From Amylostereum areolatum (lineage: Eukaryota; Basidiomycota; Agaricomycetes; Russulales; Stereaceae), in NCBI GenBank assembly GCA_012932865.1, contig SAXG01000025.1:434001-498000 (forward strand): DNA of 64,000 nt, given 5' to 3'. The notes beneath the pieces were generated by a model, which worked only from the letters and a program-made list of their open reading frames with translations, was not told the origin of the DNA and searched no databases. The translations under genes and the position numbers were made by a program. Below, in pieces: positions 6,404 to 63,898 of this stretch. Within the stretch, counting starts at the first letter, position 1, and the number at the start of each line of letters is the position of its first letter.

Positions 6404-6429
6404 GTCGACGCACGAGAAGTGAGATCGAC
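6404..6429 (-). promoter_or_regulatory. CTCACTT/GTGCG hairpin motif, copy 1
   Basis: On the minus strand the stem GTCGA pairs with TCGAC around the conserved loop TCTCACTT-CTC-GTGCG. It lies 217 bases upstream of the minus-strand start codon at 6187 and reads in the same direction as that gene. Confidence 0.75.
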
Positions 6430-6457
6430 AACAAAAGGTAAGGCGTAACAAGTAAGT

Positions 6458-6547
6458 AGACTGGAGGCCGAGTCTTTAACGGACACTGACGAGGCGAGCA
6501 GGTAGTGTCTAGTTAAAGACTGGTAGAATTCGTCGGGCGTTGATAGG
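6458..6547 (-). repeat. dispersed ~90-bp promoter-like repeat, copy A
   Basis: Nearly identical to 33670–33758. It contains an internal inverted repeat (AGTCTTTAAC … GTTAAAGACT with inner ACACT … AGTGT). Both copies are followed, on the minus strand, by the CTCACTT/GTGCG hairpin. It is open in one frame (…STPDEFYQSL…), so a coding origin in an older transposon is possible. Confidence 0.7.
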
Positions 6548-6550
6548 GAT
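6523..6550 (+). repeat. left arm of a 28-bp perfect inverted repeat
   Basis: Pairs exactly with 7193–7220. Similarity continues imperfectly about 30 bases inward, so part of the 90-bp repeat exists in inverted orientation on the other side of a 640-bp segment. Confidence 0.8.
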
Positions 6551-6723
6551 CTGCGACACCTCGGCCGCGTCATCGACCCCGTCCCGATTTGGGCACGTCC
6601 TGCACGTGATAGCCAGCGGAAACGCGTCTCGGGCTTCGACGCGTCCCACTCCTTTACCCTACTTCGTCATATTGCTACCATCCCTTCTCCCCACATGGAA
6701 CCCAATGAAGATGGAGGAGATGA

Positions 6724-7020
6724 TCACACACACGATGACCCACTATCCGAAAGTCTTGTCTCACACCTGGATGAGATCTCGTCGACTGCCTCAGAAAACG
6801 CGCGGGCGGCAAGCGCAAAAGAAGTCGGAGCACAAGGGATAGCCGGGAACTTTTGATTCATAGAAATAAAACTGTCGGCGACGATGATGGGTGGAGGCCT
6901 CGACGGTCTGACGGACTCCGGGGTGAACGTGTCAGCACGTAGAAATACGGGAGGGCCAGGCTTGTATGAAGAGCGAGGGGTTGGAGTGTTCGATGGTTCT
7001 CGTGAGGGCGAAGATTCCAT
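6724..7020 (-). CDS. doubtful exon-like open frame
   Basis: A 98-aa Pro/Ser-rich frame between the inverted repeat arms. A possible donor (GTGTGA) lies near its 3' end, which would make it a first exon, but no continuation was found. Not recognised. Confidence 0.2.
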   Translation of the reverse strand: MESSPSREPSNTPTPRSSYKPGPPVFLRADTFTPESVRPSRPPPIIVADSFISMNQKFPAIPCAPTSFALAARAFSEAVDEISSRCETRLSDSGSSCV

Positions 7021-7192
7021 TGTGATTGTAGGAAGAGAAAGTATCTATACATGGTTTGAGACGCGTCGTCGCACTGGAGTCGCGAGTCGCGAGTCGCACG
7101 TCGCACCGTCCGACATCGCGTCGGGAGCGGCATCACGTGCAGGGCGTACCCATATTCGGACGGACCTGATGACGCAATCGGTCGTTTCGCAA

Positions 7193-7220
7193 ATCCCTAT
7201 CAACGCCCGACGAATTCTAC
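7193..7220 (-). repeat. right arm of the 28-bp inverted repeat
   Basis: Reverse complement of 6523–6550. The LINE fragment begins immediately after it, so the insertion may have cut this copy of the promoter-like repeat. Confidence 0.8.
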
Positions 7221-8095
7221 TAGACTAGACACAGCCGACCATCCCGCACAATCCGCTCCATTCTGTTCCGCCGACACGTCGACACCCTCCTCAATGCCTC
7301 GGAGACGCTGGTGGTTGAAGTGGCATGGGTCCCGGGACACAGGAGCATCATTGGGAATGAGCGAGCGGACACGATCGCGAAGGAGGGCGTCTATGGTGTG
7401 CCCCTCATCCACTCCACCATTTCCTGGGCGCACGCAAAGGCAAAAGCTCGAGCTCTCAAAGCCTGGAGAGCCGCATGGGCAGCCCGCCCTCACAACAACC
7501 TATCGGTTGCGCTCCGTCATCCCCCATCCACCAACCTATCCCCTTTTCACCAAAATTTCGACGGCCCACGCGACGTCCACACTCGCATCATTCAAACCAT
7601 CCTTGGGCACGGATTCCGTGGCGACTATTACGCCCGATTCGTTCCCACCGAACCCACTGCCTGCCCGTGCGGCTACGCCCCCATCCAAACCCGAGACCAC
7701 ATCCTTGCCGACTGCCCACTCTTCGAAGATCATCGACACCACCTCCGCACCGCCTCGCGCACCCTCTCCACCCCCTTCATCCTAGGCACCCAAACCGGTC
7801 TGTCGGCCCTCGCCAAGTTCGTCGGCGCAACGCGCGCTTTCGCCAAGGTAGCCCCGATTGAGCCTCCCCCTCCCCCTCCGATCCAGACGACGTGGACCCA
7901 GGATGGTTTCCCTTAGACTACACTATACATGACTACATCTCACCCCTCCTACAATACAACAGCCCTCATATGACTTGTCCTACTCGTACAACCCACCTCC
8001 CTTCCGCACTACCATACTGCCGCATTTAGTCTTAGGTACTTGACGCGGGATATAAATGTATTTAATAAAATAAAATAAAATAAAATAAAATAAAA
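7221..8095 (+). mobile_element. 5'-truncated LINE (non-LTR retrotransposon) 3' end
   Basis: The open frame running to 7918 encodes the C-terminal RNase H and zinc-finger-like end of a LINE polyprotein. It shows VEVAWVPGHRSIIGNERAD (RNase H signature), then the CPCG … H … C segment (TACPCGYAPIQTRDHILADC) and the typical ending ILGTQTGLSALAKF. No reverse transcriptase is present, so the copy is a dead 5' truncation. It ends in an (AAAAT)n tail at 8063–8095, as expected for target-primed insertion. The left edge is placed where similarity to the inverted repeat stops; target-site duplications could not be identified. Confidence 0.85.
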
Positions 8096-8187
8096 GGCGC
8101 GGTCACGTGAAATAATATCGACACCCATGTTACCGTGGGCATCAGATGCTGCATGTCTCAGGATTTACTTATGGGCATGGCCGGATG

Positions 8188-8384
8188 TAGTCTCGGCTCC
8201 AGACGTTTTCCCACTCGAACCGGCGCCCAAGGACTGTTAGGGAGGGAGTTGTTTGGGAGTTGTGCAGGGGATTTTTCAGGGGTATTGTGCGCGGTGTCAT
8301 ACAGTTTCTCGTCATCCCATATAACCTCCTCCTCTGCGATCATCCCCTGCACAACTCCCTCCCTCACGTCTGGGAACGAGACTA
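8188..8384. mobile_element. 197-bp MITE with 9-bp target-site duplication (family A)
   Basis: Flanked by the direct repeat GGCCGGATG at 8179–8187 and 8385–8393. The element starts TAGTCTCGGCTCCAGACGT and ends with the inverse of TAGTCTCGTTCCCAGACGT, with a second inverted block (GGGAGGGAGTTG … CAACTCCCTCCC) inside. It has no coding capacity. A 9-bp duplication fits Mutator-like (MULE) transposases. Same family as 47111–47172. Confidence 0.85.
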
Positions 8385-8608
8385 GGCCGGATGCAGTACT
8401 GAATTATGGGCGAAATACAGGGTTTTCGTTGGAAATCGCCATGCTCTGAACGCGCTTTTGTTTGGCCTTGTTTCTTTGTGAGGTGCCGATAGATTACATA
8501 AGTTTATGTACTATAGGGCTCCCCTCGCCTGAATCTCTCGCATCCTGGGCCTGATTCCTCGTCGACATTCCGACCTAGCAGCCTACCCATTCGTATCCTT
8601 AGGCTCAC

Positions 8609-8634
8609 TTCGATCTCACTTTCAGTGCGTCGAA
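8609..8634 (+). promoter_or_regulatory. CTCACTT/GTGCG hairpin motif, copy 2
   Basis: Stem TTCGA/TCGAA around TCTCACTT-TCA-GTGCG. It ends 46 bases before the start codon at 8681, so it probably lies in the 5' UTR. Confidence 0.75.
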
Positions 8635-8680
8635 CGCTCACCCTGCTCTCTCTTTCGGACCCTCCGACTCAGCAGACAAA

Positions 8681-10895
8681 ATGTCATTCGTACTCAAACA
8701 ACGCCGCGAAGAGTTGGTGAATGTGAGCGACGCTTTGTAGCAAATGCGAGCCTCTGACGTGGCATCTTTCATATAGGAGCGTTCGAAAATCGAGCTTTTT
8801 AGGGATATGTGCCGCGTCAAACTGGCGAGGGACAAATCCGTGGTCGAATTCAACATCTGCGAGGACGAATTGTCAAAGATTACTGGTATCCCCATGGGTC
8901 AGCTAGTTCGCGGATCCCTCTTACACAAATGCGAGGCGGTTCAAAAATTGAAGGATCAAGTTGATGAGCGTTATCAGCTAGCTAGCGACATGCTCCAGTG
9001 CTGTCACTGCCTGGATGTTTCCAGCGTTCCGCTTCCTGATGCCATTTTTGGTCCTGTAGGCGTCGAGAATTACGGCTCATCTGTAATTCTTCCTTGTTTT
9101 GTGCAGGATCGCCCCACCTTCCTTGACGAGCTGGAAGCGTCCGTTTTGCAAGGGATCGCTGAGGTTGCTCGTCTGCGCGAGTTGTTGGTGCTCGCACGCG
9201 TGAGTGCCATTCAGCTATGACAGGCCCTCCCGCCGCTGAATTCCATCACTAGCCTGATCTTCTTCCCGAGAATACTCTGTACAAGTTGCCTTCTGTCTTG
9301 ATGTTACAGAAGGAGCTTTTTACCATAGAAACTCGTGTCAAGACCCTGACAGAAGAAACGAGACTTCTTGGACAGCTGGTCACCTCCTTGTACCACAAGC
9401 ATCCCAAAGACATCTCAGAGTTTCTTGTAAAGCACATTTCTTTTCGTCTGTAAGCCAAGAGACTGATTTACCTTGCCAGGAAAAGCAGACTGAGCTGCGA
9501 GTTCAGCGTAGTCAATTAGTGGATCTTCTGGATCGTGTTCTCAGCGACCGTGAAGTTTTGCAAAGACAAGTGTACAGCCTGGAACGGGATTCGGCGCAAG
9601 TACGCCCCGTGAAGGCTGCCCTGGTGCCATTGCTTGGGACGTTTGAAGTGAGCCTGATAACTTTTTTCTCATTCGCGTATTAAGCGGCCTCTTCCCAACA
9701 GATGAGACATGACGTATTCAAGTCGATGATCCCAGCACTTCAGACTTTCACCGCAAGCGTTCAAAAGCAGGGCCAGAAAGACATGGCTGATGCCGCAGAG
9801 CTTCTTCTCGCCTATCGGCGTTGTTGTGGTGTAGTTACCGCACTTCCGCTGGCTCAAGGCAATGGCCACAACATATCGGGAGAAGACCGAACGGCAGGGG
9901 AATCGTTGACTGCTGACAAGATATTGGGAGAAATACAGGACTTTGATGTCCGATTGCATCGAGCCCAGAATGAGCTCCGCGCAATGTCTGAACAGGTGGC
10001 GACACAAGCGATGGAGGTGAGCGCTGAGCCATCCCATACAATCTGAGGTTTCACCATCGTCTGTTCAGAAACGACAATGTGAAGCACAGTATTACGATGC
10101 AGCACTTACAAGATCCATCCTCGAAAGGAAGATCGCTGTTTTGGAGCGGGTTGTCAAAGAAGATAGGGGCTGGAATGATTCTTTGGAGGCTGTCCTTCCA
10201 TCCTTAAGCGATCGGGTGCGTCCTTGGCCCTGAGGAGTTCTGGCAGCTCATCATTACTAGTCATAGCAGAGTAAATCCGCTATGCCGGACCCTCAAAGTT
10301 TAGCATTCCGACTTTCGAATCAGTGCAAGCAGATGGAAGAAAAAATACAGCAGACTACTGCATTAGGCTCCGACATGCGTCGGCGGGCCCAGGAGGTAAA
10401 GCTACAAGTATCATCCATTCAATCTTGCTCACCCTCGTGGCTATCTACAGGCTGTATACTCCCGACTTCTGGCAGAGGAAGCATGGAAGCAAGACACGCT
10501 GTCCGAGATTCAACTTCGTCAGGATGTCCTCTCTTCACAAACCGAGCTCAAGCATCTGCAGGATAAGCCGTCCCCAGCCGAGCACGCACCCTCATCAGCC
10601 TCCGGATTGGAACTATACATTGTACGTGCGGAAAAGCAAACGCGAAAACGTATATTGATAGTTTAAATAGAGACGCATGAACTGTTTGAACTGCAAAAGG
10701 CAACCTTGCAACAAAGTATTCGTTTGTGGACACTGTACGTGGCGTGAATTCGGAATCCACTTGTTCTCGTTGCTGATCGTGCCAGGCTTTTGCGAGGCCT
10801 GTGCCGAAGAGGTTTTCAGTGGTCGACGACGACGTTGTCCTGCATGCAATAGAAGAGTTGCCAAGAACGACCTTTACCCGTTTCACTTGGCTTAA
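8681..10895 (+). CDS. coiled-coil RING-finger protein, BRE1-like (paralogue 1)
   Basis: Likely a RING-type E3 ubiquitin ligase. Eleven exons: 8681–8722, 8777–9055, 9107–9199, 9253–9426, 9480–9647, 9702–10016, 10069–10215, 10270–10395, 10451–10621, 10671–10734, 10786–10895. All introns are 49–55 nt and the result is 562 aa. Most of the protein is charged and helical, consistent with long coiled coils. The last ~52 residues form a C3HC4 RING: C-x2-C-x10-C-x-H-x2-C-x2-C-x11-C-x2-C, ending KNDLYPFHLA. Coiled coil followed by a C-terminal RING is the layout of BRE1 (histone H2B ubiquitin ligase), but this protein is shorter than usual BRE1, so the substrate is unknown. An intron splits the RING after CGH at exactly the same place as in the paralogue at 15770. 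Confidence 0.85.
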
Positions 10896-10904
10896 TAGAC
10901 CGAC

Positions 10905-12060
10905 AAGCTCCCGGCCACATATATACGTTTATTGCTCGTAGTGGTTGACGCGTTGACACATTGTATAAGAAGGAGAAGCGGTCGCGCGAATGAAAATGTG
11001 CATGACAAAAGGTCGTCAGTGAGTATTGTCGTGTCGATGTATGTACCCGTCCGATGTTAACAAGGTAGACGCATCTCTTGCATCTCGTGAAATTGAGGTG
11101 GCTGCAAGATTGAGCTTAGCCACGCAGAGTATATGTGTGTTTCATAATGGGAAAGGCGCACGAAAATGTGTTACGTCTGAGTTCGGACCCCGTCCGTCAT
11201 TGGAATGGGGGCCAGCTCGTATGTTGCCAAGCCTTACAGCTAATACCGGTCTGTGCGGAGCAATTATACCCCAGACGTCCCGAGCACGGTGGTTTGGGGC
11301 GTCGAGGGCCACGGTGTGTACGTATTCCGCGAGTTTGAGGTGGGTGGAATGCCAGTAGTACGGTAAGGAGAGACGCCTGCCCCAATGAAAACTCGAAACA
11401 TGTCCACCACCTAGGGGACAGTCCGATCAGCGAGCCCCGTGTTCATCATGTTTGGGGGTTTACCTTTAGATGTCTTGCGATCGACTTCCGCTAGCATCCT
11501 GATGAATGAACACGTCGAGGTGGTCTCGCGGTCAATATATAGGCTGTGATTTCAAAGGTTCTTTATTATAAAGACGAGATGTGCGGCGCAACAAAGAATC
11601 GAAGACACTGTGACCGCAGTACTGCAAGCCAAAGGCCTAAGATATATAAACACAAAACTATATGGAACCGGAAAATGACGGGTGGTAACCGGTACCAGTA
11701 AGCACTGGCACGTCTGGCATTACATAACACAAACTTCTACAAAGCCAAACATGCCGCGCCGCGCCTTGCCGAGTCAGGCTTCCGCTCTGCCACGAAATGA
11801 GTCGTTGACCTCACGTACTGTGCGTCAAAGATTCACGCTTTGCTCACAAGCTCACACGGATAATGGCCTTTGCCAACCATCCCTTTACTCTTTTATTTCC
11901 TGGTTTCTCTTTGTTCGATAGCATGTCCTACGCATATGTCCCAGCTCAAAGCAACCGCTCACTGTATGGTGCCTACTTAAGGTATACAACTCCTTGGTAT
12001 CACACGCAAATACGGCGTCCCTCCCCCTAGGAATACTCTTATCACTTGCGGCAGCCCCGT
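10905..12060. other. intergenic stretch without a supported gene
   Basis: Short frames only; no family resemblance, repeat or intron chain seen. Confidence 0.45.
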
Positions 12061-12906
12061 ATGGACAAACGCCATCCACAGAATTCGCCTTCATGTCTCT
12101 CCAACAAGCGTCCGCACTCGCCTAGTCCAAATTACATCGGGCAATCCGACCAACCACCATACAAGACAGACAAAGTCGTGACCAATGCAGAACACCTACA
12201 GTATCAAGCACCAATAGAGGCTCAGCGTGCCCTTAAGGTATGGGAGGGGATGTGCGCTTCATCTTATATTTAACTGATGAATCCCACCATGAATGAATAG
12301 ATCCGCCGCATCCATGGAACATCACTGCCGCGGTACATCCCGTCTCATAGCCAGCGACCGTATCACTCCAATAACTTACGCCTTCGGGGGGATGTTACCA
12401 CTACACAACTCTCGAAACCCGAGGCCGAGTCTTCAGATGGGTCTGTCATGCAAAGTCTACGCGACGTCTGCATGATGGAAGTAGGAAGTATGCACGACGA
12501 TCAGAACCCCGAAGCCTGCGGTTCGTCCTTGCCAGGAAAGGTATGTTCGTAGTGTCTCCCGCGCATATATATATGTCTCACATATGCCGGCCAGCGCATC
12601 GACGAGGTTCAAGGGCGCGAAACATTTGGCAATGACCTTGACCTCGATATGAATTCCGATATCCGGGTAACTCAGCCAGGTCTCCCCCTTTCTCCGTCCG
12701 TCAGCCTCAGCGCAGTAGGTATGCCTTTTCTACGTGACTTGCAACAGCAACAGGGCGCGCTTGAAAGCTCGCCGTGCTTGCGTATGGACCTCACAAGCGA
12801 GAATACCCCGCTCAACGAGTTGGAATGGGATTTGTTGTCTGAAGGAGTTCTGGGCGAAACGGGCTCAGACAGCGGAGATGAGGGATGGGAAGTGCTCGAA
12901 AATTAA
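12061..12906 (+). CDS. hypothetical acidic protein, three exons
   Basis: Exons 12061–12237, 12301–12540 and 12595–12906 join in frame to give 242 aa. I do not recognise it. The N-terminal part is Pro/Ser/His-rich and basic; the last ~40 residues are acidic (NELEWDLLSEGVLGETGSDS followed by GDEGWEVLEN). Low-complexity chains of this kind occur in regulatory or adaptor proteins, but no domain is visible. It lies between the two RING paralogues. Confidence 0.7.
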
Positions 12907-13339
12907 AGCCTTCGGATATAAAAGGCTTGAGGTTGGCTAGGAGCATTGAATAATTGCACACTCATCTTTGATCTTGTACTGCAAATGATTCGTGCAGCGC
13001 TTGTATCGTCAAGGTTACTATAAGCTCAATATTGTATCCAGTACTACTTTGTGGCTAATAACGTGCTCCTGTCGTTATAGAAGACAACTACAACCTGTAC
13101 GTTCGGACGTCGGGTCCAGAATCGAGAGCAAAGGACGAGTGCCGGGTTCGCGTTTCCTACCCTTCTCATATCGTCTCAACGAGTCATCTGACGTCGGGGC
13201 ACGAGACCAAGTTATTTGCATGCCCAATCATAATACTTAGGACTATCCGTGATACGTGTAGGCATATAGATATACATGATATACCGGATAATCCACCTAA
13301 ACCCTATCTGCCGTTAATCTGCCGTTGCAACGAAGATGT

Positions 13340-14452
13340 TCAGTTCCTTCGTAAGTTGACCTTTTCGAGCCGACGAAGTAAAGGCTGCGAAGGCTGTACG
13401 CCCACCATCCGCATCATATCCGCGAGCTCTCGAGCGAGCCTTTGACGTTCCTCCGCCTTCGACCCCAGCAGCGTATGCACCGCCTGCGCCAGCCTCCCTT
13501 TGGGTCCCGCGGAACAGTCCTTGGTCTCGACAGTCGAGCCTGCGCCATTGTTCGAAGGTCCTGCATCATTCCGCGTCGAGGACCCTGCGCCAGACTTCGT
13601 GCTTTGCGAGCCATTCTGCGCTTTCCCTTTCGGCTTCGGCTTCGGCTTCGGCTTCGCTTTGGCCGCCACCTTGCTCTTTAATCCCACCTTTGCCACCACC
13701 AGCAGCGGCTCGATGACCTCCAGCCGGAATCTCCTCAGCGCCATTGACGCCAGCGGCACGACGCGATCCTGCGAACTCGCCGCTTCAGCACACGCCTCGG
13801 CTCTCTTCAAAGCTTCTTCATCCGCGCCGGGAACCGCCCCCCACTTGCTCAACTCGGCAGTCCTCCTCTCCTGGATCTTCCCTGCCACCTTCAGCCCGCT
13901 CTCCCGCGAAAGCACTGCCGCTGCCACGTCGTCCAGCACGTCTTTGACCTGAAACCATCCACGGTCCTCGCTGGTCGACCTTTGAACATACTGTCGGTTT
14001 ATATAGTTCAAAAGGCGATCTACAGCGCCCGCGCCCGCGCGGTATCGAACGAAGGCATCCAGGAGGTGATGCACAAGCGCATCGTCATCGTCTGGCAGAC
14101 CGAGAAAAACGTCCGTCGCCGCGGCTGCGAAGTACCGATCGAGTCGGTCATAAAAATCTTGCGCAGTCTGCGCCTCCCGCGCGCACATCGGGGGACTGTC
14201 TTGTACGCCCACAGCCGACGGTACCTGGGGCTGAGAGGCGGTGAAGTAGTTGTAGACGGCGGTGTGGATGCCCATGTGGTACGACACTTCAATTGCGGGA
14301 GCTTTGGACAGCGTGTCGGTCGGCGCGTAGATGATGTGATCCAGCGCGGGCTGGATATAGCCCCAGAGTGCAGTGTACGACGTAGACGGGCTAGCGCTCC
14401 CGGTAGGAGGACATCGTAGTGGTAGCGGTGGAGGCTCAGGCGTTTCCAGCAT
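13340..14452 (-). CDS. cullin N-terminal-domain-only protein
   Basis: Single exon, 370 aa. Residues ~25–175 resemble the first cullin repeat of CUL1/CDC53: the segments HMGIHTAVYNYFTAS, AQDFYDRLDRYF and VDRLLNYINRQYVQR match helices of the CUL1 N-domain that contact Skp1. After about residue 240 the chain changes to a Lys/Pro repeat (KPKPKPKGK, from a GGCTTC-type microsatellite at 13629–13655) and a Ser/Gly linker. No cullin homology domain, Rbx1-binding region or neddylation site is present, and a full cullin has about 750 residues. It could bind Skp1–F-box modules without recruiting an E2, acting as decoy or alternative scaffold; that role is inference. A TE-derived or decaying copy is possible, but the frame is intact. 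Confidence 0.75.
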   Translation of the reverse strand: MLETPEPPPLPLRCPPTGSASPSTSYTALWGYIQPALDHIIYAPTDTLSKAPAIEVSYHMGIHTAVYNYFTASQPQVPSAVGVQDSPPMCAREAQTAQDFYDRLDRYFAAAATDVFLGLPDDDDALVHHLLDAFVRYRAGAGAVDRLLNYINRQYVQRSTSEDRGWFQVKDVLDDVAAAVLSRESGLKVAGKIQERRTAELSKWGAVPGADEEALKRAEACAEAASSQDRVVPLASMALRRFRLEVIEPLLVVAKVGLKSKVAAKAKPKPKPKPKGKAQNGSQSTKSGAGSSTRNDAGPSNNGAGSTVETKDCSAGPKGRLAQAVHTLLGSKAEERQRLARELADMMRMVGVQPSQPLLRRLEKVNLRRN

Positions 14453-14770
14453 CTTCTTGTGTGAAAAGAAGTGGAGTATGATGAGGTGGAAGTGAGGACG
14501 TAAACGTGAATGCTGTCGTCGAGACTCGATACTCGAGAGCCTTTAAACTTAAGTCACTCACTGAACCCGTTCTTCGGTTCAGTCCGACCGCGACGCGCTT
14601 CAAGGTAGTTACATAATAACCCTCAACTTGCCTCGGGACCCTCTCTTCAGGATGGCACTGTCAAGGCTCTGTCAAATATCAATGCCGATGCGAATTAAAA
14701 TAAAAACGCGTGATCTCGTACTTGCGCGCACTGCATAACATTCCGAAATCTGGTTCTGAAGGTGGATTGT

Positions 14771-14836
14771 CACGCGCGTTGACGCGTTGACGCGTCAGCC
14801 AATCCAAATGTCCGATCAAATGTGACGCGTCACATT
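14771..14836. promoter_or_regulatory. cluster of ACGCGT boxes upstream of the cullin-like gene
   Basis: Overlapping GACGCGT/ACGCGTC copies, an inverted CCAAT-like box and the palindrome TGTGACGCGTCACA lie ~320–380 bases upstream of the minus-strand start at 14452. ACGCGT is the classical MBF-type cell-cycle box in fungi; use here is inferred. Confidence 0.45.
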
Positions 14837-14864
14837 ATCAAACTCCTTTATGTCAGTGTAAAGG

Positions 14865-14974
14865 CAGACTCCTTCCCTTAGTCGACTCGTACTCGCGGGG
14901 AGCTGTTGAGGTGGGTTGTTCGGGTAGGGGGGGCCGAAACCCGCGAGTACGAGTCGACTAAGGGAAGGAGTCTG
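14865..14974. mobile_element. 110-bp MITE with 35-bp perfect inverted repeats (family B)
   Basis: Arms 14865–14899 and 14940–14974 are perfectly complementary and begin CAGACTCCTTCCC. The 40-nt centre is unpaired. The direct repeat GTGTAAAGG abuts both ends (14856–14864 and 14975–14983), a 9-bp target-site duplication. Noncoding. The 9-bp duplication and the similarity of AGACTCCTTCCC to AGTCTCGTTCCC suggest the same type of transposase as family A. Confidence 0.85.
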
Positions 14975-15361
14975 GTGTAAAGGGGGAGTACCGGAGATAA
15001 AGCTTAAAGGATCCCGAGGTAGGGTTTACGCATATCCACTCTGCTACTGGAGACTAAGTATCGGGGGAGCGGGTGCTTCCAGGGCTGCCAGGGTGGGTCC
15101 TGATGCAGATGGGTCCAGTTTCATAGTAGGTTGAGTCAAAACCTGTCAAAACTTACCGGTGCTTACTCTTCCCTCCGCCCGACAACCGCTACTCTGCTCT
15201 CTCCGGCGCTACCCGGTCGGAGCCTGAATCCCAGGTAGGCTTGAGACTTGGGTCCAACCCACGACTACGACGCCTCTTTCTACCGAGTTCACCCACGATT
15301 AGCCTCGATCTCTTCTTACCCACGACTCTCTTCTCGCGTCGTCACATACTCACAATCCATT

Positions 15362-15385
15362 TCAACCTCACTTCCTGTGCGTTGA
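15362..15385 (+). promoter_or_regulatory. CTCACTT/GTGCG hairpin motif, copy 3
   Basis: Stem TCAA/TTGA around CCTCACTT-CCT-GTGCG. The second stem pair is A–T here instead of G–C, a compensated change. 385 bases upstream of the start at 15770. Confidence 0.7.
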
Positions 15386-15701
15386 TTTGGAACCAATCCG
15401 TTCAGGGTTATACTAGTACCTCTCAGGGTACGGACGCTCGCGATGTTCGGTGCGAGCTGCGCGTCTCACCCTTCACCTTCCTGACAACTTTCTTAGTATA
15501 CACTCTTCGTGATTGAATATCGACCTCTCAAGTGTAGTGTTTTGCGGCAGTCTAAGGTGCGCCGAGTTTGACATAATCATGTTGACTGACGTCTAATCTA
15601 TCGAATATTTAGAATCACTGGCAGTCCTTCAAGCTTCCTAGCGATTGGACGCTTATTGGGTGCTTTCTTCATCGCCCCATCCCTTTTCGTACACTTATTT
15701 A

Positions 15702-15724
15702 ACGACCTCACTTCTCGTGCGTCG
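15702..15724 (+). promoter_or_regulatory. CTCACTT/GTGCG hairpin motif, copy 4
   Basis: Stem CGA/TCG around CCTCACTT-CTC-GTGCG, 45 bases before the start codon at 15770; same distance as copy 2 has to the paralogous gene. Confidence 0.75.
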
Positions 15725-15769
15725 CAATATTCTACACAAATCGATCATATCGTTTACAATGTCGATAGC

Positions 15770-47172: not shown

Positions 47173-47181
47173 CTTGGCCCC

Positions 47182-50704: not shown

Positions 50705-50946
50705 ACGAGCGTTCCATACCCAGATTGTTATCCTCAGGACTTCAATATGTAAAATCCTTCCTTAAGCTTGCTTGTTACACACAAAGCAGTCAGGGAGTCA
50801 AGGTATTTGATTGATTTCTTTGGCGTAAAGGCAACTGTCGTCCTCATACCCGTCACTCCGCCCGTCCCCTTCAGCCTTTATGAACCGATGCATACGCTCC
50901 CCGGGCCCACACAGAATCCCTCCTCGATTGCCCACATCGCTCTACC

Positions 50947-52133: not shown

Positions 52134-52630
52134 TATGTACACTTTGTTCCACTCTATTCAGCTGCACGAATTACGATTCCTAAAGAATTGTGCAAAGTGG
52201 TATTCCGTGTCCATGCTTGTCAATGTGCCTGTAATTTCAGGCGCCATACCACCCGCAACACTCCTGCTGTCTACAACGCATGCCCCTGCTGCAACTCTCA
52301 CCATTCATCATCCACCCGCCCTCGCTCCAATGCTCTCCTCGCGCACAACATCTCTGTCATCTACAATGTTCTTCGCTTTCGCCATCCACAATATGATGCG
52401 ACCAGCACAACGGGAGTAGGGGAGTAAAGAGCGCGTTGGAGTGAGCACATCATCACCCGGATCCCTATCAGAAAGGTCAAAAACCCCTAGCAGAGGCCCG
52501 TCCTGTTTTAGGCTTTTTCCGGAATGGGGATCCCTTTCCTGACGGGCACGGCCAAGGCGATTCAGAATGAGTGGAGCTGGACAAACTTGTCGAGTGTACC
52601 ATTCGTCGAGCAGCCGGTCGGCACCGGGGG

Positions 52631-52682
52631 TTTTTTTTTTTGTTTTTTTTTTGTTTTTTTTTTGTTTTTTTTTGTTTTTTTT
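52631..52682 (+). repeat. T-rich microsatellite (T8–11 G)n
   Basis: Five T runs separated by single G. Could be the copied A-tail of a minus-strand retroposon, but no element is visible next to it. Confidence 0.9.
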
Positions 52683-52974
52683 GATTCCAGTTTATCGTAT
52701 TTGAGGGTAGCAGAACCCTATGTAACACCTCGTACAGTACGTATATAATTGTAGCGGTTGTCCCTCGGCACCGGGTTCTCGCAGGGCACGCCCACCGCGC
52801 GGGTGCATTCATTTTTCTCGCGTCCTTTGGTTTGTACGCTGACGCGGGATGGACAGAACTGGCTGACGCTTTGGTTGAAAGTCCGCGGGGATGTGTGTGC
52901 CCTGTGAGTGTTCTCCTTCCCTGGGCGGGTTGGCAGCGTGCTGATGTCCGCGGCAGACATCACCAAATTACATC

Positions 52975-54021: not shown

Positions 54022-54651
54022 TGTGGGTTTTCCTCGCACTGTTTCTAATATTGTTTCTGGTTGAATGCTGGCGCGCTGCTGACTCTGCGAATCGGCCATG
54101 CCTTACTAGTGCATTTCACTCGAAGCAATGCTTATGCTGGGTGCGCGCGGCAAACCTGTAGTGAGATCAGGGAAGAGACTGCAGAGCAAGTAAGTCTTAT
54201 CATGTCATGCGAGGTCCATGGCTCAACGAACATCCGCATTTCAGCTACCTATGACGTCCATCACAGTCAAGTTGGGCCAACGCGACCCCGAACGACGTCA
54301 TCGCAGCAACAGGTCCAGGCTCTCATGTGACCCACCTCAGGTACCAGTCTGACTTCTGGAAAGCATATCGTGCGCCTTCATGCGCCCACTGTTCATTTGT
54401 GGGCGTCCTTCCTTTCCAATCTACATTTGAGATGCCATCATACCCCCAATGTTGCTGTTTTTCTGCCCGCTGAACTCTAAGTATGCCTATGGGGAATCTG
54501 TGCTGACAAGCCAGATGTTATATCTGAGACAATCCCATCTGAGACATACTGATGTGCCTCTAAAGACGGTCTGAAATTCTCAAACATATCTCCAGGCATA
54601 AGTATTTTCTGACTGGTCCCCCGAGTTTCTCCCTGTTTCTCCCCCCCATCC

Positions 54652-57600
54652 ATGCCTACCATGCGCGTGGAACCTGTCTCCCTTCCCGCTCGGGAGAGCT
54701 ACCTTCCTGTCCTATTTCGCTGTCTTGACGCTCATCCCGGTCGGCCTGCCGGCCTGCCTGTTGGGCAGACATACGTCTACGAACAGGATGTGTCCAAGGC
54801 CGCTTTGAAAGAGCTCGACGACGGCGCGGCGAAGCAGGAGGTGCCGAAGACCACGTCCGCCGAAACTCTGCGCAACTCCCTTGGTGCGTATATATATCCT
54901 TCTCCCCAAGTCGACGCCTTGCTCATCCCCGTCCAGGCTTCTTAGAATTGAACGCGGGCGACGCCATCTTTGCTCGGAAGAAGGGCGACCCCAAAAATGG
55001 TTCGCTGGATATACTGCAGGCTCTTGTTCTCGACCGGTACGTCTCTATCCCCTTTGCTGCCAACAAGCTAATACATATACGCTTCCACAGCCACTATTTT
55101 ACCAAACCGGTCACAGATGGGATCGACGGGGACGGCAGCGTACCTGACCTCGAGCTCGCGGACGGGCTCGACAGCAACGACGCCGCCGACAATCTCCCCT
55201 CCTTCAAGGTCGTGGAAAACCTGACAAGGGTTCGCAACGACATGCTCGGCGAGGAAAATGAGCGCGGCCCCTCCATCCCTCTCGAATATTACATCGCTGA
55301 ACCCGGCATCAAAGGCAAGGTTAGGAGGGGAGGGACGGCATTCGAACGTTCTGGTCATGCGCACCCAGTCGCGGAGGGCACGCGCGCGTATGGGATTGCC
55401 ATGTCCTACGAGAGAACGACCAAGCTCATTTCTCCGGCCAAGGGGAACAAGGTTTCCGCCGCCAACGAAGATCTCCGTGGCCTACGCATGCGCCGCGACG
55501 TCCTGCAGGTAAGGCATCGCTCTGGTCTGCAGGGGACATGCACTTACCTCCTGTTGTAGCACGGCGTGTCCGTTGGTGTGGCAGCATCAAGATACCTTCC
55601 TGAGGAATTCCGCACTCACATGCGTCTTCAAGCGGAACTCGTCAACGCCCCCTCGATTGGCACTAGCGGCAACGTTTTCTGGAGCAACGCTCAAGTTAAT
55701 CTCTCCCATGCTGACCATGGCTATACCGGTACGTCTGGCGGGCGCTCCACATTTCTTTTCCGGCCTGTCGATGACCTCTGCGCGTTTGCTGTGCAGATGT
55801 TGTCCTCGGGACATTCTGACTCTAGTTCCAGGTATCAACGACCTCAGTCGGGAGCTTGGTATCTTTGGCGATGGGCACAAGGACGGAGAGGATGCGTTGG
55901 CTGGACTGACCTGCATGATATCCCACCCCGATATGCCCAACAATTACTTCCCAGGTATGTCATTCCGTGTCGCACGCGCACACTTGTAATATACCTCAGG
56001 TGCTCAAAACAGGATTCTTCTTTTTGTTCGAGTTGGGCGTTTTTGTCTCCCTTTCCAACTTCAAGATGATGTTCTTCAGCGGCCTCAGAAAGCACGGCGG
56101 TTCAGCACCTCAAGCACCACCGGGCATGAAGGCTGTTGACTGGGCGTACCGATTCGTCCTTATCCTGTACCCGCCGTCTTCAATAATGTCTAACACGGGC
56201 ATAACGGCGATCGCAACCTTGCAGTCCAAGCATCTAATTCGTACAGAGGCGAAGCAGCTCAAGTGGAAACCCCTGACAGAAGAGGAGGAGAAGGAGAAGA
56301 AGGAGAGTCAAGGTTTACTGGGGATTTCTCCAGAGATGAAGAATAAGTACAAAGCGCCTTCACATCTTGACGTCACCATATACTTATTCTATCAGTCCGC
56401 AGGACATAAACTCGCGCCCATGGTCGGTTCACACTACCTGGGCCTCGGACGGTCACATCATCATGCCAGGAGATGCCCTCTTAAACTTCATCACCCGCAT
56501 GCTGTTGCTCCTATGCACATTTGTTCTGGCTCAAGTCCATCACAAGTTCCAGGTGCGTGACCCAGACCAACCGGTGGTAGCGCTATGTCTTAACCTAAAA
56601 CAGATTCGCATTGATACCGATGTGTTTCTTTCCGCTTTCTCCATGGGCAACCCGGAATTCAAGGGCGATGCAACCACTGAAGATGCCCCGTCGAGAAGCA
56701 GCGCAGTCGCGCCAAGGATCACCGCAAGAACGTGGCTATATGCCCCGCATCTGAATGGTATGAATCTGTTGTGTCTGACTTGCATCCCTGAGCTGACCCA
56801 TGTATAGATCCTAGTAAGGATGTACACCGCGAACGCGCGGCACGCCATTTCAAGGAGTTTGAAAGGCGCTCTGGCCAGTTGATCCCTCAATCGGTCCTCG
56901 CAAAAGGCAAGACGTTCGCTATGCAAACCTCGACGCCTATCATCCATTGGGCTAAAGGCGGAAGGCCGGCATTGGAGGCACAGCGAAAAAGTAAGCCATT
57001 TTCGTCATGCAATCGATGCGGCCATTACTGATGTCACATATGAAGAGCCCGACCTAGATAATGAGGATTCTCTGCGGGTGGATCCAAAGCCAGTCCCCAT
57101 TAGTACGTGTGATCACGTTGACGTGGATGAATATACTCACTATGCCAGTAGAACCCAAAAAAAATGACAAGGAGAAGAGGACGAAATCGTCCGGTGGCCG
57201 CTTGTCGCACATATTAAAGATGAAGTCCAGAGTGACGGAACCACGGAAGAGGATGATTGTTGAAATTCGGTCAACACGACCCCCATTGGTTACATCTCAA
57301 ATTCTTCGTCGAGCTCACCATAAGGAGGGAGAGGAGGAGGAGGAGGAGGAGGAGGAGGAGGTTCTGACTTCGCCTGTGCTAAGGAGGTCTGCGCGTAGGC
57401 CAACCAGCGGACATGGTGCGTCTAGTTGATCCAAATGAGAATGTAACATGATAGACAATGGCAATATAGGAGCCCTCCACAGCGAGGACGAGGATGTTGA
57501 CATGGATGCGCATCACACCGATTCTGACGAACTCAGTGAATTGACCGCGAAACTCAATTACACGCCTGTCGATAAACAGCCTGTCTCCATCGCCTATGAG

Positions 57601-59977
57601 GCGACCTTCGACTCAGACGACTCCCCTGAACTTAACTCCCCAGGCGACAAAACAGCTGCACTTGACTCTCCCCCAGTTGAACAAACTCCTAGACCTGATT
57701 CTCTAGAATCTGAGAATCTGGAGGTTCCGGCGCGAACTCGTGTTCAAGGCGATGCGTTCTTTACAACCCAGCCTGAAAGCCTGGCTCTGCTGAGCCTCAT
57801 CATACAACGACAACCTCGTAACATCAATGCTCCATTCCACCTCCCACCTGGCACTATGCGTTTGAATCCTTGGAGCAACCCGCTCAATATATATGGACGA
57901 TCTGTGGACAAGCAGAAAGTACTTCAAGATACATCTGTAATCTTAAGCAAAAGTGCGGATTTCTACATACCATCTGCTGCTCATTGTGTTGACCTTATTT
58001 TCTCCAGAGGCGATTGCATATGACGCCAAGTCTATAGTCAAAGAAGTAGCAGACTTCATCTCTTCCTGCGATGATTCGGAGGGAGTTTCGTTTGAGGATA
58101 ACGCGATCTCGGAGGAGAGGGCAGTATCGGCAGCCGTCACCCCCCTGACGGGTGTGGCAGAGGATGATAGTTTGGCTGGACTATGTCAAGCATGGCACTC
58201 CCTTGGATCTCTCAAGGCACAGAAAAACAAGAACAATATTCTGACTATCTATCACCGCTTTCATATGATGAAGAATCATGCGGATCTGTGGGCGTGGCTG
58301 GAGCTCATTGCGGCTAGACACTCCAACCCGGAGTGCACGGACAGGGACACCCATCCAGGCATCCAAAAGCTGGCTGCTCGGCTTCTTGGCTGTCTCCAGG
58401 CCCAGATCAAAGAGACATCAATACTTTCATCCGCCTACCTTCCTACTATTCCAAAGCAGAAGCACGCTGTTCAAATCTATCGGCGTGGTGTATGCGGAGA
58501 CGGATCTCCCTTTGCCACACAGGTTGCAGTATACGAGCTCCTGATTACCGTTCTTGGGCAATGGCTCGGCTTTCCTCAAGATAATGGGAGATCTCGTGCC
58601 CAAGCCTGGGTTATACAAGGCCTGCGTGAGATTTCCGGCGACAACATCCTGCTTTTGCGAGACACGGAGGAAGTTTTTCGTCATGTTACGACACGTGCAA
58701 CGACTGGTCGTATACGGGCCCACAGATCTGACAAAATGGTGGAGTACCTGCCCTTCCTCAACATATGCTACAGCCTGGACATCGGGCCTGAAGGCAGGAT
58801 CTCCACCGCAATGGCTAGTATGCGTTCTATGTTTGATACCTTTCAGACTCTTCTGGCCCCCTTGCCTCCCACTACCCCATCTTGTTCGACATCTCTTGTC
58901 TCTATTTATTCTGGGACAATACGGTCTTCTGCCAACATTCCACGCCAATCCACACCAGAGGCTGGCCCGTCGTCCCACCTCGCTAGTGAGTCTCCACATG
59001 CCACAACGCCAGCCCTTGCAGCGGGAAAATGGTCTCCACCGGCTTCTATACCAACCCCCAAGATGATAGCATGGGTCAAATGTATGAAGGTCTTGCTCTA
59101 CTTTATCGACAAACCTTCACCCCGGGACCGAAAAGTCCTCCCAAATCCTCCCCCTCCATCCGATCTGCACATCAGAGAAAAGGCCGTCATTACATTCACG
59201 GCTTCCTACATAGACAGGTATCTTCCTTTCCGCCAGCATGCACCAACAATGCGCAAGGTTACAGCCCACCTGGAATCATTGGGAGCAAATGCGGACGTAT
59301 GGCTGAAAAGCCCAGTAGGACTTTGGAACATGGTAGTCGTGCGAACCATCACCATCGGTACTGGGTTCCTATTCGACTATGGCTGCGGCTTTAGGAATTC
59401 CGATCATCTGTTTCAAGTCAAACGTGAGGCAGAAGATGCAGGTCACACCGAAAAAAGCTACTTTTGCAATACAACAATTTACGGCAACTCAGCTGGTCAC
59501 AATATCAATCTTGCAAAAGACCTGTGGGACGCTGTCTCCGACAGCTCCCTCTCTCTACCCTGGTATGGACTTCTCCCTGGAGCCAAGCCAAGCTTCAAAG
59601 CCATGTTCGACTTCTTTTCTGCCCATTGGCAAGATGGAAAGCGGGTATTCTCACAGTGTGGAGAATTGGCATCCCTCCTGTTAGCTGGAGATTACGCACA
59701 CGCAGGTATCTGCGAGTTCGCTACTGTTCAAGAAATGGGCATCATCATCCGAAAGGTCAATGCAGGCGCTGTTTCTGGCTTGAGGGTTTTAGGGTTGCTC
59801 CCTCCTATGCCAAATCATGCCAAGAAACCTCCAGCCCCTCCAGAAGGAGAATTGCAGATGGCTTGGAGCTCTTGGTACACATGGACCGGAACTCAGTTTT
59901 CTGAGCAAGAGAAGGAGGCAATGGGCTGGAACACCACTATGGGGGGAAAACAGTCTTTGCAAGGCATTGCGTCTTAA
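54652..59977 (+). CDS. large conserved hypothetical protein, 13 exons, ~1,553 aa
   Basis: Exons 54652–54883, 54937–55036, 55091–55508, 55560–55728, 55832–55954, 56013–56346, 56396–56552, 56604–56757, 56808–56990, 57046–57102, 57149–57415, 57455–57952, 58008–59977; total 4,662 nt, all in frame. The first ~500 residues belong to a family I recall only as hypothetical proteins of agaricomycetes. They contain LSRELGIFGDGHKDGEDALA, then FSGLRKHGGSAPQAPPG and WAYRFVLILYPPSS: an H-x-D … H … R order like Fe(II)/2-oxoglutarate dioxygenases (inference only). Then come a basic linker, a Glu run from a GAG repeat (57330–57363), an acidic Ser-rich segment, and a ~650-residue unknown C-terminal domain (HTEKSYFCNTTIYGNSAGHN). 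The intron at 55729–55831 may hide a small exon. Fusion of two genes is possible, but the 57953–58007 junction is clean. Confidence 0.7.
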
Positions 59978-60049
59978 AAAATACTTTTAACCATTGTAGA
60001 ATATTTGGTAGTACAGTAGTCACTCTTGTTGATTCAACAATCCTGCATC

Positions 60050-60991
60050 GCCGCCCCCGTCCCCACCCGCTCGCACCTTCTGATGCTCCCGCATGAACGT
60101 CTCGAACGTCCCGAACCCAAACGTGCCCCCCGTTCCCGCGCATGGCTTCTTGTACAGCTAATCGAGCTCTAGCCGCGTCTTCAGCGCTTCAGCAGCTTCA
60201 TGAACCACTGGAAATCTGCAAAGTCCAAAAAGCCGCGGCTGCGCGCGTCCGCCTGCTAGAACCAGCGCAGGAGGTCCTCCCGGGACGAGTTGATGTTCAG
60301 ACGCTTGCAGAGCTTCTCGTCGTCGAAGTACAGCCGCTGGTCGCCCTCTGCGCCCTTCCAGTACTGCTTCTCCCACATGGCCTCACGCATCTCGACGTGG
60401 CCGAGCCCGCTCATGAGCGCCTGGCGGACGGTGTACAGCCAGCGGAGGGTGACATCCCACATTTGGAACATGTCCGCGGAGGGCGCGACGACGTGCAGGG
60501 TCTTGTACTGGCCCTCGAGCATATAGATGATCGTGAGCCACCACGCCTCGTACTCGCGCGCGAGCTGGAACTGCTCGAGGTAGTAGCGCGTGTCCGCGCC
60601 CGAGCGAAGCTCCTTGATGTTATCGATCGGGACTGCGACGCGGCGGGAGGTCAGATGCAGGACGACGCAGGAGGGAGGGAGGAGAGGGACGAAAGGGAGC
60701 GAGAACCGCACTGATGCGGTGCTCGCTCAAGTCCCAGAGGATCTGGCCTTGGTCCGGGTCGAGAAGAAAGATGACGCGCCTCCGTTTCTTGCTGGACACT
60801 TTGATCATCGGCGTGCCCTGCTGCAGTAGTTGCAGCACCGCGATGTCGTTTGTGGTGGCTTTCTGCGCGACGGGCTCGCCGCGGATGGCATTGGCAGCGT
60901 TGACGGTGGCGGGGGAGATGGCAATGGTGGTAGAGGTAGGCGGGGGCGTCGGGGTCGAGTGGATGGTATTCGCGACGTCGACAGAGGTCAC
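60050..60991 (-). pseudogene. phosphoinositide-specific phospholipase C, N-terminal fragment
   Basis: PH-domain and EF-hand part of a PLC-delta type enzyme: QQGTPMIKVSSKKRRRVIFL, LDPDQGQILWDLSEHRI joined by an intron to IPIDNIKELRSGADTRYYLE, YEAWWLTIIYMLEGQYKTLH, MSGLGHVEMREAMWEKQYWK and EKLCKRLNINSSREDLLRWF. A stop follows directly, then QADARSRGFLDFADFQWFMK and LLKR with more stops, and finally TFGFGTFE-like traces in another frame. Catalytic X and Y boxes are absent. A broken fragment of a normal single-copy gene. Confidence 0.8.
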
Positions 60992-61802
60992 CGGTCACTG
61001 CCCTGGTTCCAACCGCGCGGCAAAGGTGGTAATGCTTGCCAACGGCAGGGTCGGGATAAGAGCCGGCAGATCGCAGTTCATCTACAGAGCGTTGGTCTAT
61101 GCAAACGAGAGATGGGGAGGAAAAACGTACCCGCAACCACCATGCACCCATCTCTGATCAACAATCAACGACACTGGCGGGTCGAGTTGACGAGTCGGTG
61201 CGTCTGTTAGAGATGGGGCAGTCCTGGGCGATCAGGATCTGGCGTCGCCGGGAACGGGACTGGTGATAGAGAGTATAGCACGTACCAATCCGAAGTGATG
61301 TCGATAACTGCCCAGCCATCGACCAATCTCCTTCATCCGCCCCGCGCACATTCTAATCCGTCTGGTCTTATCGAGAGCAGTCACAAGACGAGACGGCGGT
61401 GTTGTTTGTAGTCAGTAAATTGCGCGATGAAGGCCGACGTTGATAGAGATGAATAGCGACGAAGGGCCTGGGTCCTAAAAGAAGAGAGAGAGGAGGAACC
61501 TGGTGGTAGTGGTGGTACAGAAGTGATGGAACACAAACTTCAGCGCTACTTTGGTCCGTGTTTCTTCAGGAAGGTTTCTTCTTTCCTTCCTCCTTCCTCT
61601 TCCATTTCTCGACCACACCTCACTGCGAGAGAATAAGGCAAAAAACAAAAACAACGACGGATATGTACGAGACCCAAAAAGATGATGAGCCGTGTATCAC
61701 GTATATATGCAAAGACATTAATACGCCCGGTATCGTACTGTACCGCAAACAACGTGTGATACAGGATTGTTTTCTGCTATAAATCTAAAATGCATTTCAT
61801 GT
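60992..61802. other. intergenic stretch without a supported gene
   Basis: Nothing recognised. Confidence 0.4.
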
Positions 61803-63284
61803 CTAAGATCCCGTGCTGCATGGCCAAATCCACATCCATCCACCGGAAAGACTGGACGAAACAGGGTTGGAGACCACAACATCAACCCAGCGTACTTCAC
61901 CCCATCTCCCAACCATTCCCCAGGGAGTGAAAATGCCATTGAAAACGACCGCCATGTCGTCGTCCCTAAGCTGAACCAACAGCACCGAACCGTCCTTAAC
62001 ATCACAATTTCCAACCCAAGGATGCTCGAATGGGACCCTAGTTCCGACCAACCTTACCCGGATGGTGGTGGGGTTGACCGGTGACACTATCACGTCATAC
62101 ACAGCTTTCTGAAGGAAGGACGCCCCATATGTTTGGCTGCAACCATGCCAGCGAGCGGATGACGCCGGGCCTCCTTCCAATAGACGATGTAATGGCGTGC
62201 CTGCAATGCCTCGGGTCCACCGAAGATCTGCTTGTTGGAAAGGCGGGAGCTGTAAGTCATCCAAGGCATGAACGCGATCAAACCATGGGTTCGAGGATTG
62301 TTCGAAGGCCCATGTTGTTTGGGCGCGGAGCTTGAGTAGAAGAAGTGTTTGAACGTTGAAGCAGAATGCAAAGCATCTCGATATGGCGGGTATGGTTAAG
62401 GGCGTCGAGGCAATTAGGGGCAGAGCGAGGTCGAGGATAGGAAGGGAGAGTGCGGCCATTTGATTGCTGAAAAAGATATCGGCTGCCAATCTGCCGTTAG
62501 TCACCAAAGCGTAGCTGATGCCGGTACCCATGCTACCTGTTCCGCATACATTTTAGCATCCAAAAATCGAAACGATATGAGAGACAAACCTCCCACAAAC
62601 AGAGTCACCATGGAAAATGCACACCGATGTAGTCGGAGCGCATCCAGCAGCTCGGAGATAGGTGTAAAGTTCGCAGGGATTTGAGACGTGAATACAGGGT
62701 ATAGGGTGATGTAGGGAATGATGTCGCGCCAGACTTCACAATATGGCTCGCTGAGAAGATTTGACATATTGTGGGGACCTATCAGTGGGTGAGCAGTTAT
62801 TGAGTGTAACAGAGAGTATCTGTCATAGAAGCGTACTGTCACAGATCCGCGGAGACCGAAGCTCATCGGTAAGGGTGCAGATGCATTCAAAGACTTCGGG
62901 GCAATGGACGGCGCATAACTGAGAGTACACTTTCAGAGAAAGGTCGCCGTGGCATGAGCGTGTGGTCATGGTGCGTTGATTGTGAGTGGCCAACGATGTC
63001 CTGATAGCGGCGAAGCACTCCATTTTAGCGGCCTCTACAAGCTGCTCGATGCGGTTGAAGGCGAGATCGACGAACTTCCAGTAAGGGGTCGACGATGCTA
63101 GCCGGGTGTCGTAGCCGATTCGGGTGTCCCAACCTGCATTGATGAGGCGCTGCTTGTAAATGAGACTGAGGTTCAGGATGCCTTGAACACGCCTGTTGGC
63201 CAGGGACAACGCAGTGACATCCCTATGCGACTGTAAGTAGCACGCGATCTCCTGGATCAGCTCAGCAACGAGAGAGACAGGCAT
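61803..63284 (-). CDS. F-box-type protein
   Basis: Three exons, 63284–62843, 62778–62590 and 62536–61803, give 454 aa. The first 50 residues form an F-box-like helix set: MPVSLVAELIQEIACYLQSH, RDVTALSLANRRVQGILNLS. The middle has a long charged part and the end is Trp/Val/Gly-rich (FNGIFTPWGMVGRWGEVRWV). Both introns (64 and 53 nt) have phase-1 borders and good signals. It belongs to an expanded agaricomycete group of predicted F-box proteins; target unknown. Two copies of the hairpin motif precede it. Confidence 0.75.
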
Positions 63285-63604
63285 CTAGACAAGACGGAAG
63301 ATCAGCACGAGAAGAAGAACTTCAGGCTAAGAGCACATACATGCACTTGATGGACAGCAGGAAGAGATTAAAAGGTAGCGATGGTGAAGCTTGATGTGTG
63401 TGTCGTAGACGGAAAGCAGTAGCAGAGTTGGTGCAGGTTTAAAAGCGAGGCGCACAACAAAGACCTTAGACTCACAGGGACACTTACAGAGATCAATCCA
63501 TGGCCCGTTGAGAAAGAGATAGGCCAACCAAGCAGCAGAAAGATTTCTGGTCAGAATGAATTTCAAGCATGGTATAGAAGAATGATACAAAGAGATACCC
63601 CATG

Positions 63605-63628
63605 TCGACGCACTAGAAGTGAAATCGG
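63605..63628 (-). promoter_or_regulatory. CTCACTT/GTGCG hairpin motif, copy 16
   Basis: Minus-strand stem CGA/TCG around TTTCACTT-CTA-GTGCG; 321 bases upstream of the start at 63284, same direction. Confidence 0.7.
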
Positions 63629-63695
63629 CGCAGCGGTAGAAACAAATAACCAGGAAAAAGCAACGGAGCTGAATGATACAAAGAGATACTCCCTG

Positions 63696-63719
63696 TCGAC
63701 GCACTAGAAGTGAAATCGG
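63696..63719 (-). promoter_or_regulatory. CTCACTT/GTGCG hairpin motif, copy 17
   Basis: Tandem duplicate of copy 16, about 50 bases downstream (minus strand) of a TATTTAG sequence at ~63,767. Confidence 0.7.
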
Positions 63720-63872
63720 TACAGCAGTAAGTAGAAACAAACAACCAGGACAAAGCAATGGTGCCTAAATATGGTGCCGGGCCACATGGTGATGCAAATC
63801 ACGTGACACTTTGCCACTGCTGGCAGTGCATGGCGCGCACCGATTCCTGCTCAGCTGCACATGTACAGTGCA

Positions 63873-63898
63873 ATCGATCTCACTTTCGTGCGTCGAAA
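63873..63898 (+). promoter_or_regulatory. CTCACTT/GTGCG hairpin motif, copy 18
   Basis: Stem TCGA/TCGA around TCTCACTT-TC-GTGCG, pointing out of the window. A CACGTG at 63800–63805 lies between it and copy 17. Confidence 0.75.

Follow-up and report, generated by a model that had tools for sequence, protein, structure and literature searches.

What is the short hairpin-forming motif that is scattered over a 64-kb stretch of the genome of the fungus Amylostereum areolatum, and why is it repeated there so often? The stretch analyzed here, called the window in the following, covers 64,000 nucleotides of contig SAXG01000025.1 (C101:434001-498000), and the host genome in which we searched for the motif comprises 57.1 Mb. 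We found 19 copies of the pattern CGA-YCTCACTT-N2/3-GTGCG-TCG in the window (Table 1). An original prediction made from the window had listed 18 of them, all of which were recovered within a few bases of the positions given, and we detected one extra copy. On balance, we consider it probable that the motif represents a promoter/5'-leader module belonging solely to a giant CACTA transposon, an element that was invisible to the original prediction because only 64 kb had been seen.

The core of the motif, YCTCACTTN{2,3}GTGCG, had 84 exact matches in the genome, compared with 6 for the reversed-pattern control, and these were located on C6 (13), C13 (25), C15 (9), C101 (23), C108 (13), and C146 (1). 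When the CGA/TCG flanks were included and up to two mismatches were allowed, we obtained 83 places with N2 and 25 with N3, many of these 108 places being duplicated or allelic copies. All but two (106 of 108) were inside homologous blocks on C6, C13, C15, C101, and C108 or in an element fragment on C102, the two others being on C136 and C118. The element blocks sum to at most ~0.47 Mb, i.e., ~0.8% of the genome. A chance origin of the motif, already judged negligible in the original prediction, is ruled out by this confinement and by the excess over the reversed pattern. With up to three mismatches, scattered places appeared; chance matches matter at this level, the reversed controls yielding 14 and 16 places. 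A known RNA family and a tRNA were also rejected as identities of the hairpin, the window containing no match to an Rfam covariance model at the gathering score and no tRNA.

BLAST comparisons between the blocks showed that homology begins at the same base amid different surroundings. The terminus sequence CACTGGGTGCAAATCCCCC (CACTGGG...) has exactly 8 perfect copies in the genome, each of them located at the edge of a block and directed inward (Table 1), and the AT-rich ends were alike over several hundred bases in 8 of 8 cases, save for a deletion in C108. The element on C13, which has both of its ends, is 160,428 bp long. Its insertion flanks read ...TTTTCC and TCCTTAGC..., and contig C113 carries an empty allele in which ...TTTTCC is directly followed by TTAGCG..., with a left flank 99.5% and a right flank 97.5% identical to those of C13. 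The 160,428 bp are therefore present in one allele and absent from the other. The target duplication at C13 is 3 bp (TCC).

The window also contains open reading frames (ORFs) of a CACTA-type transposase, Tnp2 (Pfam PF02992, E-value 1.4e-14), and the C13 element carries the only long homologue of it elsewhere in the genome (78% identity). Comparison of the first Tnp2 ORF between the window and C13 gave a synonymous divergence (dS) of 0.85 and a ratio of nonsynonymous to synonymous divergence (dN/dS) of 0.09 over 501 stop-free codons. In an alignment of 20 rows, two from this genome and 18 taken from 120 listed proteins, D220, D317, C336, C339, H410, and H420, which include a CxxC, were invariant in all rows. 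CAC..GTG ends and 3-bp duplications are marks of EnSpm transposons, as described in the sections of PMC12730594 drawn on here. Because it combines such ends with a 3-bp duplication and Tnp2, the giant element is, judging from its sequence, a CACTA (EnSpm)-type DNA transposon. It is unlikely that Tnp2 belongs to an unrelated nested insertion, its sole long homologue being in the other, divergent giant element; we found no long or near-perfect inverted ends around Tnp2 in the window, the best spanning pair being 17 nt long and 82% identical. Subterminal repeat arrays are typical of plant En/Spm elements and are not defining. Searching for such an array, we recovered no 8-10-mer that occurred three times within 700 bp, and over 1000 bp at the left end of C13 no repeat had more than two copies.

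The original prediction had mentioned as an alternative that the motif might be a fixed target or the end of a mobile element. This alternative had to be abandoned: the termini have another sequence, and the hairpins are located at least 2 kb inside, the nearest one being ~2.0-2.1 kb from the element end on C6, C15, and C108, 4.1 kb on C13, and 5.9 kb on C101.

The block on C101 spans 122.8 kb, which is not a measured element length. We found no direct target duplication between its two flanks. The left flank and the flank of C15 form a pair around undisrupted repeat copies (GGG), and the right flank may pair with the C6 flank, with a candidate CTA duplication of three letters only. Because the flanks share no duplication and pair instead with C15 and perhaps C6, contig C101 probably joins two near-identical elements. 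The fragment on C102 (C102:71795-109574) corresponds to a single 6.75-kb element end split by four inserts and carrying one hairpin copy, for which a second terminus was not found. The terminal sequences of the C13 and C101 element forms were 92-96% alike, whereas their Tnp2 genes differ by the dS of 0.85 given above; this could be due to a recent exchange of ends or to transfer between lineages.

On the sense strand, the consensus hairpin has an outer stem that begins with CGA/UCG and continues with a variable complementary extension, then a Y-R pair, followed inward by an internal loop with two bases against one, a CAC/GUG stem with little or no variation, and a loop of 4-5 nt (UUNN or UUNNN). 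The 109 hits in the fetched DNA were reduced to 60 flank families, and removal of 5 families with more than two edits (leaving 55) and of 4 without YCACTT left 51 non-redundant sites. The alignment contained 50 of them, one at the edge of a fetched stretch being omitted. The covariation of the stem asserted in the original prediction was borne out by a significance test. For the eight pairs counted outward from the A-T of CGA/TCG, the 51 sites had 255 Watson-Crick cells compared with 211.8 in shuffles, and none of 5000 shuffles reached this number, nor did any of 5000 reassignments of whole right arms. Single-pair tests on twelve pairs gave P < 0.05 for pairs 2, 3, 4, 5, and 7 and not for pairs 1, 6, and 8-12. 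In the 50-site alignment, the covariation score was 0.272, compared with 0.183 ± 0.014 after shuffling (0 of 500 as high) and at most 0.130 with slid partners, both controls leaving the relatedness among sites partly uncorrected. The Y-R pair was UG in 29 sites, CG in 14, UA in 6, and another combination in 1, and over pairs 1-8 G-U was retained over A-C (0.67, 0.57 expected, P 0.0001).

The hairpins were oriented with respect to genes. At 41 of 52 sites, the sense strand had the longest downstream ORF (P = 3.6e-5), downstream sequence being compared over 1000 nt for C13 sites and 2000 nt for the others. In the fetched DNA, neighboring hairpins at most 500 bp apart faced outward in 26 cases, the same direction in 13, and inward in none, duplicates included. 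CACGTG E-boxes were enriched on the upstream side, with 13 unique occurrences within 200 bp (2.5 expected, P 2e-6) compared with a single one within 200 bp downstream; such an upstream E-box was present at 16 of the 51 sites. For the WD40-type gene, the hairpin was kept 5' of the gene in both divergent elements, one of its pairs changing from U-A to C-G, and the surrounding promoter was hardly alignable. The hairpin region 5' of Tnp2 gave a weak 26-nt match between the two elements (E-value 0.025). The original prediction had described the copies as intergenic and directed toward genes, which was the case for most of them, although at least two conserved genes of the window are not preceded by a copy on their own strand.

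That promoter and leader form a transferable unit is suggested most strongly by PEX3 and a NUP155-like gene, two unrelated genes of host origin in the C101-type element. The copy of PEX3 located in the inverted end of C101 is recent cargo, with 92-94% identity to a host copy on C126. The NUP155-like piece has no Nucleoporin_C match itself, a family matched by the host NUP155-like ORFs. Both genes have lost their 5' parts and have the same 149-bp leader upstream (95% identity), which ends at the same base (...CTTCGTCA). Host homology resumes 2-3 bp past the leader end in PEX3 and ~10 bp past it in the NUP155-like piece, corresponding to distances of 68 and 75 bp from the hairpin, respectively. 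PEX3 in the C13 element has retained its own 5' half, and leader segments are duplicated within the element. The hairpin leader thus stands in for the native 5' part of a gene at least twice.

To characterize the other cargo, we scanned 196 of the 258 ORFs selected in the C101 block against Pfam and obtained 13 family names, including F-box, kinase, WD40-type, cullin, SUN, Nucleoporin_C, and peroxin-3, as well as a weak nuclease match. In the same scans, we found no viral domain (capsid or viral DNA polymerase) and no match to a Starship tyrosine recombinase captain. The F-box gene had a dN/dS of 0.27 between C101 and C13 over 500 codons, with one stop in the aligned C13 stretch, and a search for protein relatives gave one weak match only. 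Because this gene is limited to two divergent elements and has such a dN/dS, part of the cargo was apparently retained over a long period.

We suggest that many cargo genes would start behind one module composed of promoter-like DNA, then the hairpin, then the gene. In roughly one case in three, the promoter-like part includes an E-box, and close divergent genes have one hairpin facing each way. Transcription would begin at or just ahead of the hairpin, and the hairpin would act in the 5' leader of the RNA, marking the transposon's own transcripts for shared control. Within the module reading, action as RNA is modestly favored over action as DNA, with about two thirds of the weight, because of the stem covariation and the common U-G pair. 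More speculatively, the transposon might spread the leader onto captured genes by recombination. A further and tentative step would be a post-transcriptional regulon, in which the hairpin present on most element mRNAs would be read by a dedicated factor and the leader, once installed on captured host genes, would enroll them. The original prediction had proposed a structured 5' untranslated region or promoter-proximal element; orientation, outward pairs, upstream E-boxes, swapped 5' ends, and covariation all speak for this proposal, which we regard as partly supported.

The best-surviving rival, which we nevertheless regard as rather unlikely, is a core promoter acting at the DNA level, in which the dyad would work as double-stranded DNA (bound by a dimeric factor or as a start-site element) or as an extruded cruciform, with no role of the RNA. 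Several results weigh against our own interpretation, and some of them would be expected from such a promoter. Both strands fold equally well (mean z -1.84 for sense and antisense; mean fold energies -9.79 and -9.78, P 0.39), and the G-U excess over A-C was not significant when only pairs 1-5 were considered (P 0.12). We looked for the depletion of ATGs downstream that is seen in a typical 5' untranslated region and did not find it. Only 21 of 53 sites had their first ATG 20-60 nt past the hairpin, many of these ATGs opening short frames, and ATGs 20-50 nt downstream were slightly and weakly in excess (25, compared with 16.6 for permuted triplets, at 51 sites). The invariant CTCACTT-like core, the E-box spacing, and the pyrimidine-rich flanks, which resemble the surroundings of fungal start sites, would also fit a DNA element. 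Other difficulties concern the module as a whole: 35 of the 51 sites lack a CACGTG in the 200 bp upstream, a search for TATA and CCAAT boxes at a fixed distance from the hairpin gave none, the window genes at 14542-13343 (-) and ~41917-40423 (-) have no same-strand hairpin upstream, and in the hairpin of the WD40-type gene another stem pair is broken between the two elements. However, a fixed protein site should conserve its arms instead of covarying them, the commonest Y-R pair, U-G, would be a mismatch in DNA, and the retention of G-U over A-C in pairs 1-8 also argues against a role limited to DNA.

An improbable explanation is that the hairpins are recombination or gene-capture signals, either joining sites for captured pieces or binding sites of transposition proteins, their orientation relative to genes being secondary. 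The start of the two captured genes ~70 bp past a hairpin, behind a shared leader that ends at the same base, and the duplication of leader segments would be in line with this. But exchange at the hairpin center would split the arms and destroy their covariation, the hairpins are not subterminal, and the outward pairs with E-boxes between them look promoter-like. It is very unlikely that there is no transposon at all and that segmental duplication or assembly of an ordinary accessory region produced the blocks; the apparent joining of two elements in C101 and the eukaryotic genes in the blocks could suggest this, but the exact inward termini with differing flanks in 8 of 8 cases, the empty allele with its 3-bp duplication, and the conservation of Tnp2 in both element forms do not. 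Finally, an integrated large DNA virus with a shared promoter motif, which the size, the long inverted ends, and the shared motif would fit, is hardly credible, given that none of the 13 family names obtained from the scanned ORFs of the C101 block is viral, that a 15-base core pattern had 5 single matches in a viral collection (which may omit records near this genome), and that mobility is accounted for by the CACTA ends and Tnp2.

The promoter/5'-leader module of a giant CACTA element can be compared with several known systems. CAC..GTG termini, the 3-bp target duplication, and Tnp2 with invariant D, D, and CxxC are common to CACTA/EnSpm elements, whereas the present one is peculiar in its numerous cargo genes, which have a covarying hairpin in common, and no subterminal repeat array was found in it. 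Its 160 kb contrast with the 16-20 kb of enlarged families, the only size at which CACTA is mentioned in the sections drawn on here of a 2019 review of giant transposons (PMC6431247). Starships, including those of Tremella, are alike in size and gene cargo (PMC12134995; PMC13066641, in part); they have a tyrosine recombinase captain, whereas none was found in the scanned ORFs, and the portions of these two papers used here make no mention of a hairpin leader common to the genes. Teratorn, a piggyBac-herpesvirus fusion of 41-182 kb, is alike in that a DDE-type transposase moves more than 100 kb, and differs by its viral replication and capsid genes, only cellular domains being found among the scanned ORFs (PMC6431247, in part). 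According to the same part of that review, Helitrons have a hairpin near the 3' end as replication terminator, whereas the hairpin is internal here. Helitrons and Pack-type elements also carry pieces of host genes, as PEX3 and the NUP155-like gene are carried here, but in the present element the same element leader recurs in front of the captured pieces. In spliced-leader and other structured 5'-leader systems, many genes have a common structured 5' segment, which offers an analogy. Here the hairpin is DNA-encoded before each gene, and most leaders share only ~21-22 nt plus the arms.

In the open-licence literature, we encountered no CACTA element of giant size whose genes share a hairpin leader, and a 160-kb CACTA element with many cargo genes is far beyond the sizes found in print. 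It would add a DDE-transposase route to giant fungal cargo elements, beside the tyrosine-recombinase Starships. An element-specific signature marks gene starts, the states before and after are visible on PEX3, and the empty site is known; co-regulation and gene recruitment are therefore directly testable. The hairpin and terminus signature could also be used to seek such elements in other mushrooms.

TABLE 1. Positions of the hairpins, genes, and element termini (window numbering unless a contig is named).
Feature	Position	Strand	Remarks
Hairpin	6406..6427	-	5' of ORF 6187-5186 (-)
Hairpin	8611..8632	+	5' of ORF 8807-9220 (+)
Hairpin, one core change	11806..11827	+	absent from the original prediction
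Hairpin	15363..15384	+	
Hairpin	15703..15724	+	
Hairpin	25711..25731	-	5' of WD40-type gene (-); kept before the orthologous gene in the C13 element
Hairpin	26041..26061	+	5' of Tnp2 transposase gene, 1.6 kb ahead of first long ORF
Hairpin	33633..33653	-	
Hairpin	39503..39523	-	5' of kinase ORF 38785-38477 (-)
Hairpin	39673..39693	+	outward-facing partner of 39503; two CACGTG E-boxes between
Hairpin, one core change	42219..42239	+	
Hairpin	42835..42855	+	5' of F-box-like gene
Hairpin	50123..50143	-	inside leader segment 50058..50206
Hairpin	50304..50324	-	
Hairpin	50457..50477	+	
Hairpin	50683..50704	+	
Hairpin	63606..63627	-	5' of ORF 63284-62823 (-)
Hairpin	63697..63718	-	91 bp from copy at 63606
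Hairpin	63875..63895	+	outward-facing partner
Tnp2 (CACTA-type) transposase ORFs	27703..31599	+	78% DNA identity to C13:714230-718211
F-box-like gene	43467..44993	+	only other genomic DNA match in C13 element
NUP155-like captured host piece, 5'-truncated	48581..50048	-	host copy C23:461409-462898
Hairpin leader segment	50058..50206	-	95% identical to PEX3 leader C101:404911-405059
Terminus pair	C13:706831-867258		both ends; exact CACTGGGTGCAAATCCCCC copies
Terminus pair	C101:399047 and C101:521891		inward-pointing; entire window (1..64000) between them
Single termini	one each on C6, C15, C102, C108		exact CACTGGGTGCAAATCCCCC copies

Some smaller observations concern individual hairpins and their neighbors. 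The two same-strand hairpins within 63606-63718 have similar flanks and correspond to a local duplication; the ORF behind them, 63284-62823 (-), had no Pfam match and is F-box-like by eye only. The short frames opened by the leaders at C101:411797 (+) and C101:404996 (-) resemble each other (MFLDRAETLRR and MSLDRGTETLRH), which hints at a common first coding segment. A 680-amino-acid ORF behind a hairpin (C101:409146-411185, -) was assigned to no Pfam family; over 66% of its length, it matched a protein of Amylostereum chailletii at 85%. The genes at 13343-14542 (-) and ~40423-41917 (-) are conserved in the C13 element and have relatives elsewhere (C139; C130).

The giant element has itself received other repeats. 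Stretches of the window at ~6456-8110 match many places of the genome at 75-98% and, because of these many matches, correspond to ordinary repeats inserted in the element. The sequence at ~34359-37244, of which an 85% copy is present on C85, is of the Plavaka transposon type and was probably inserted into the giant element.

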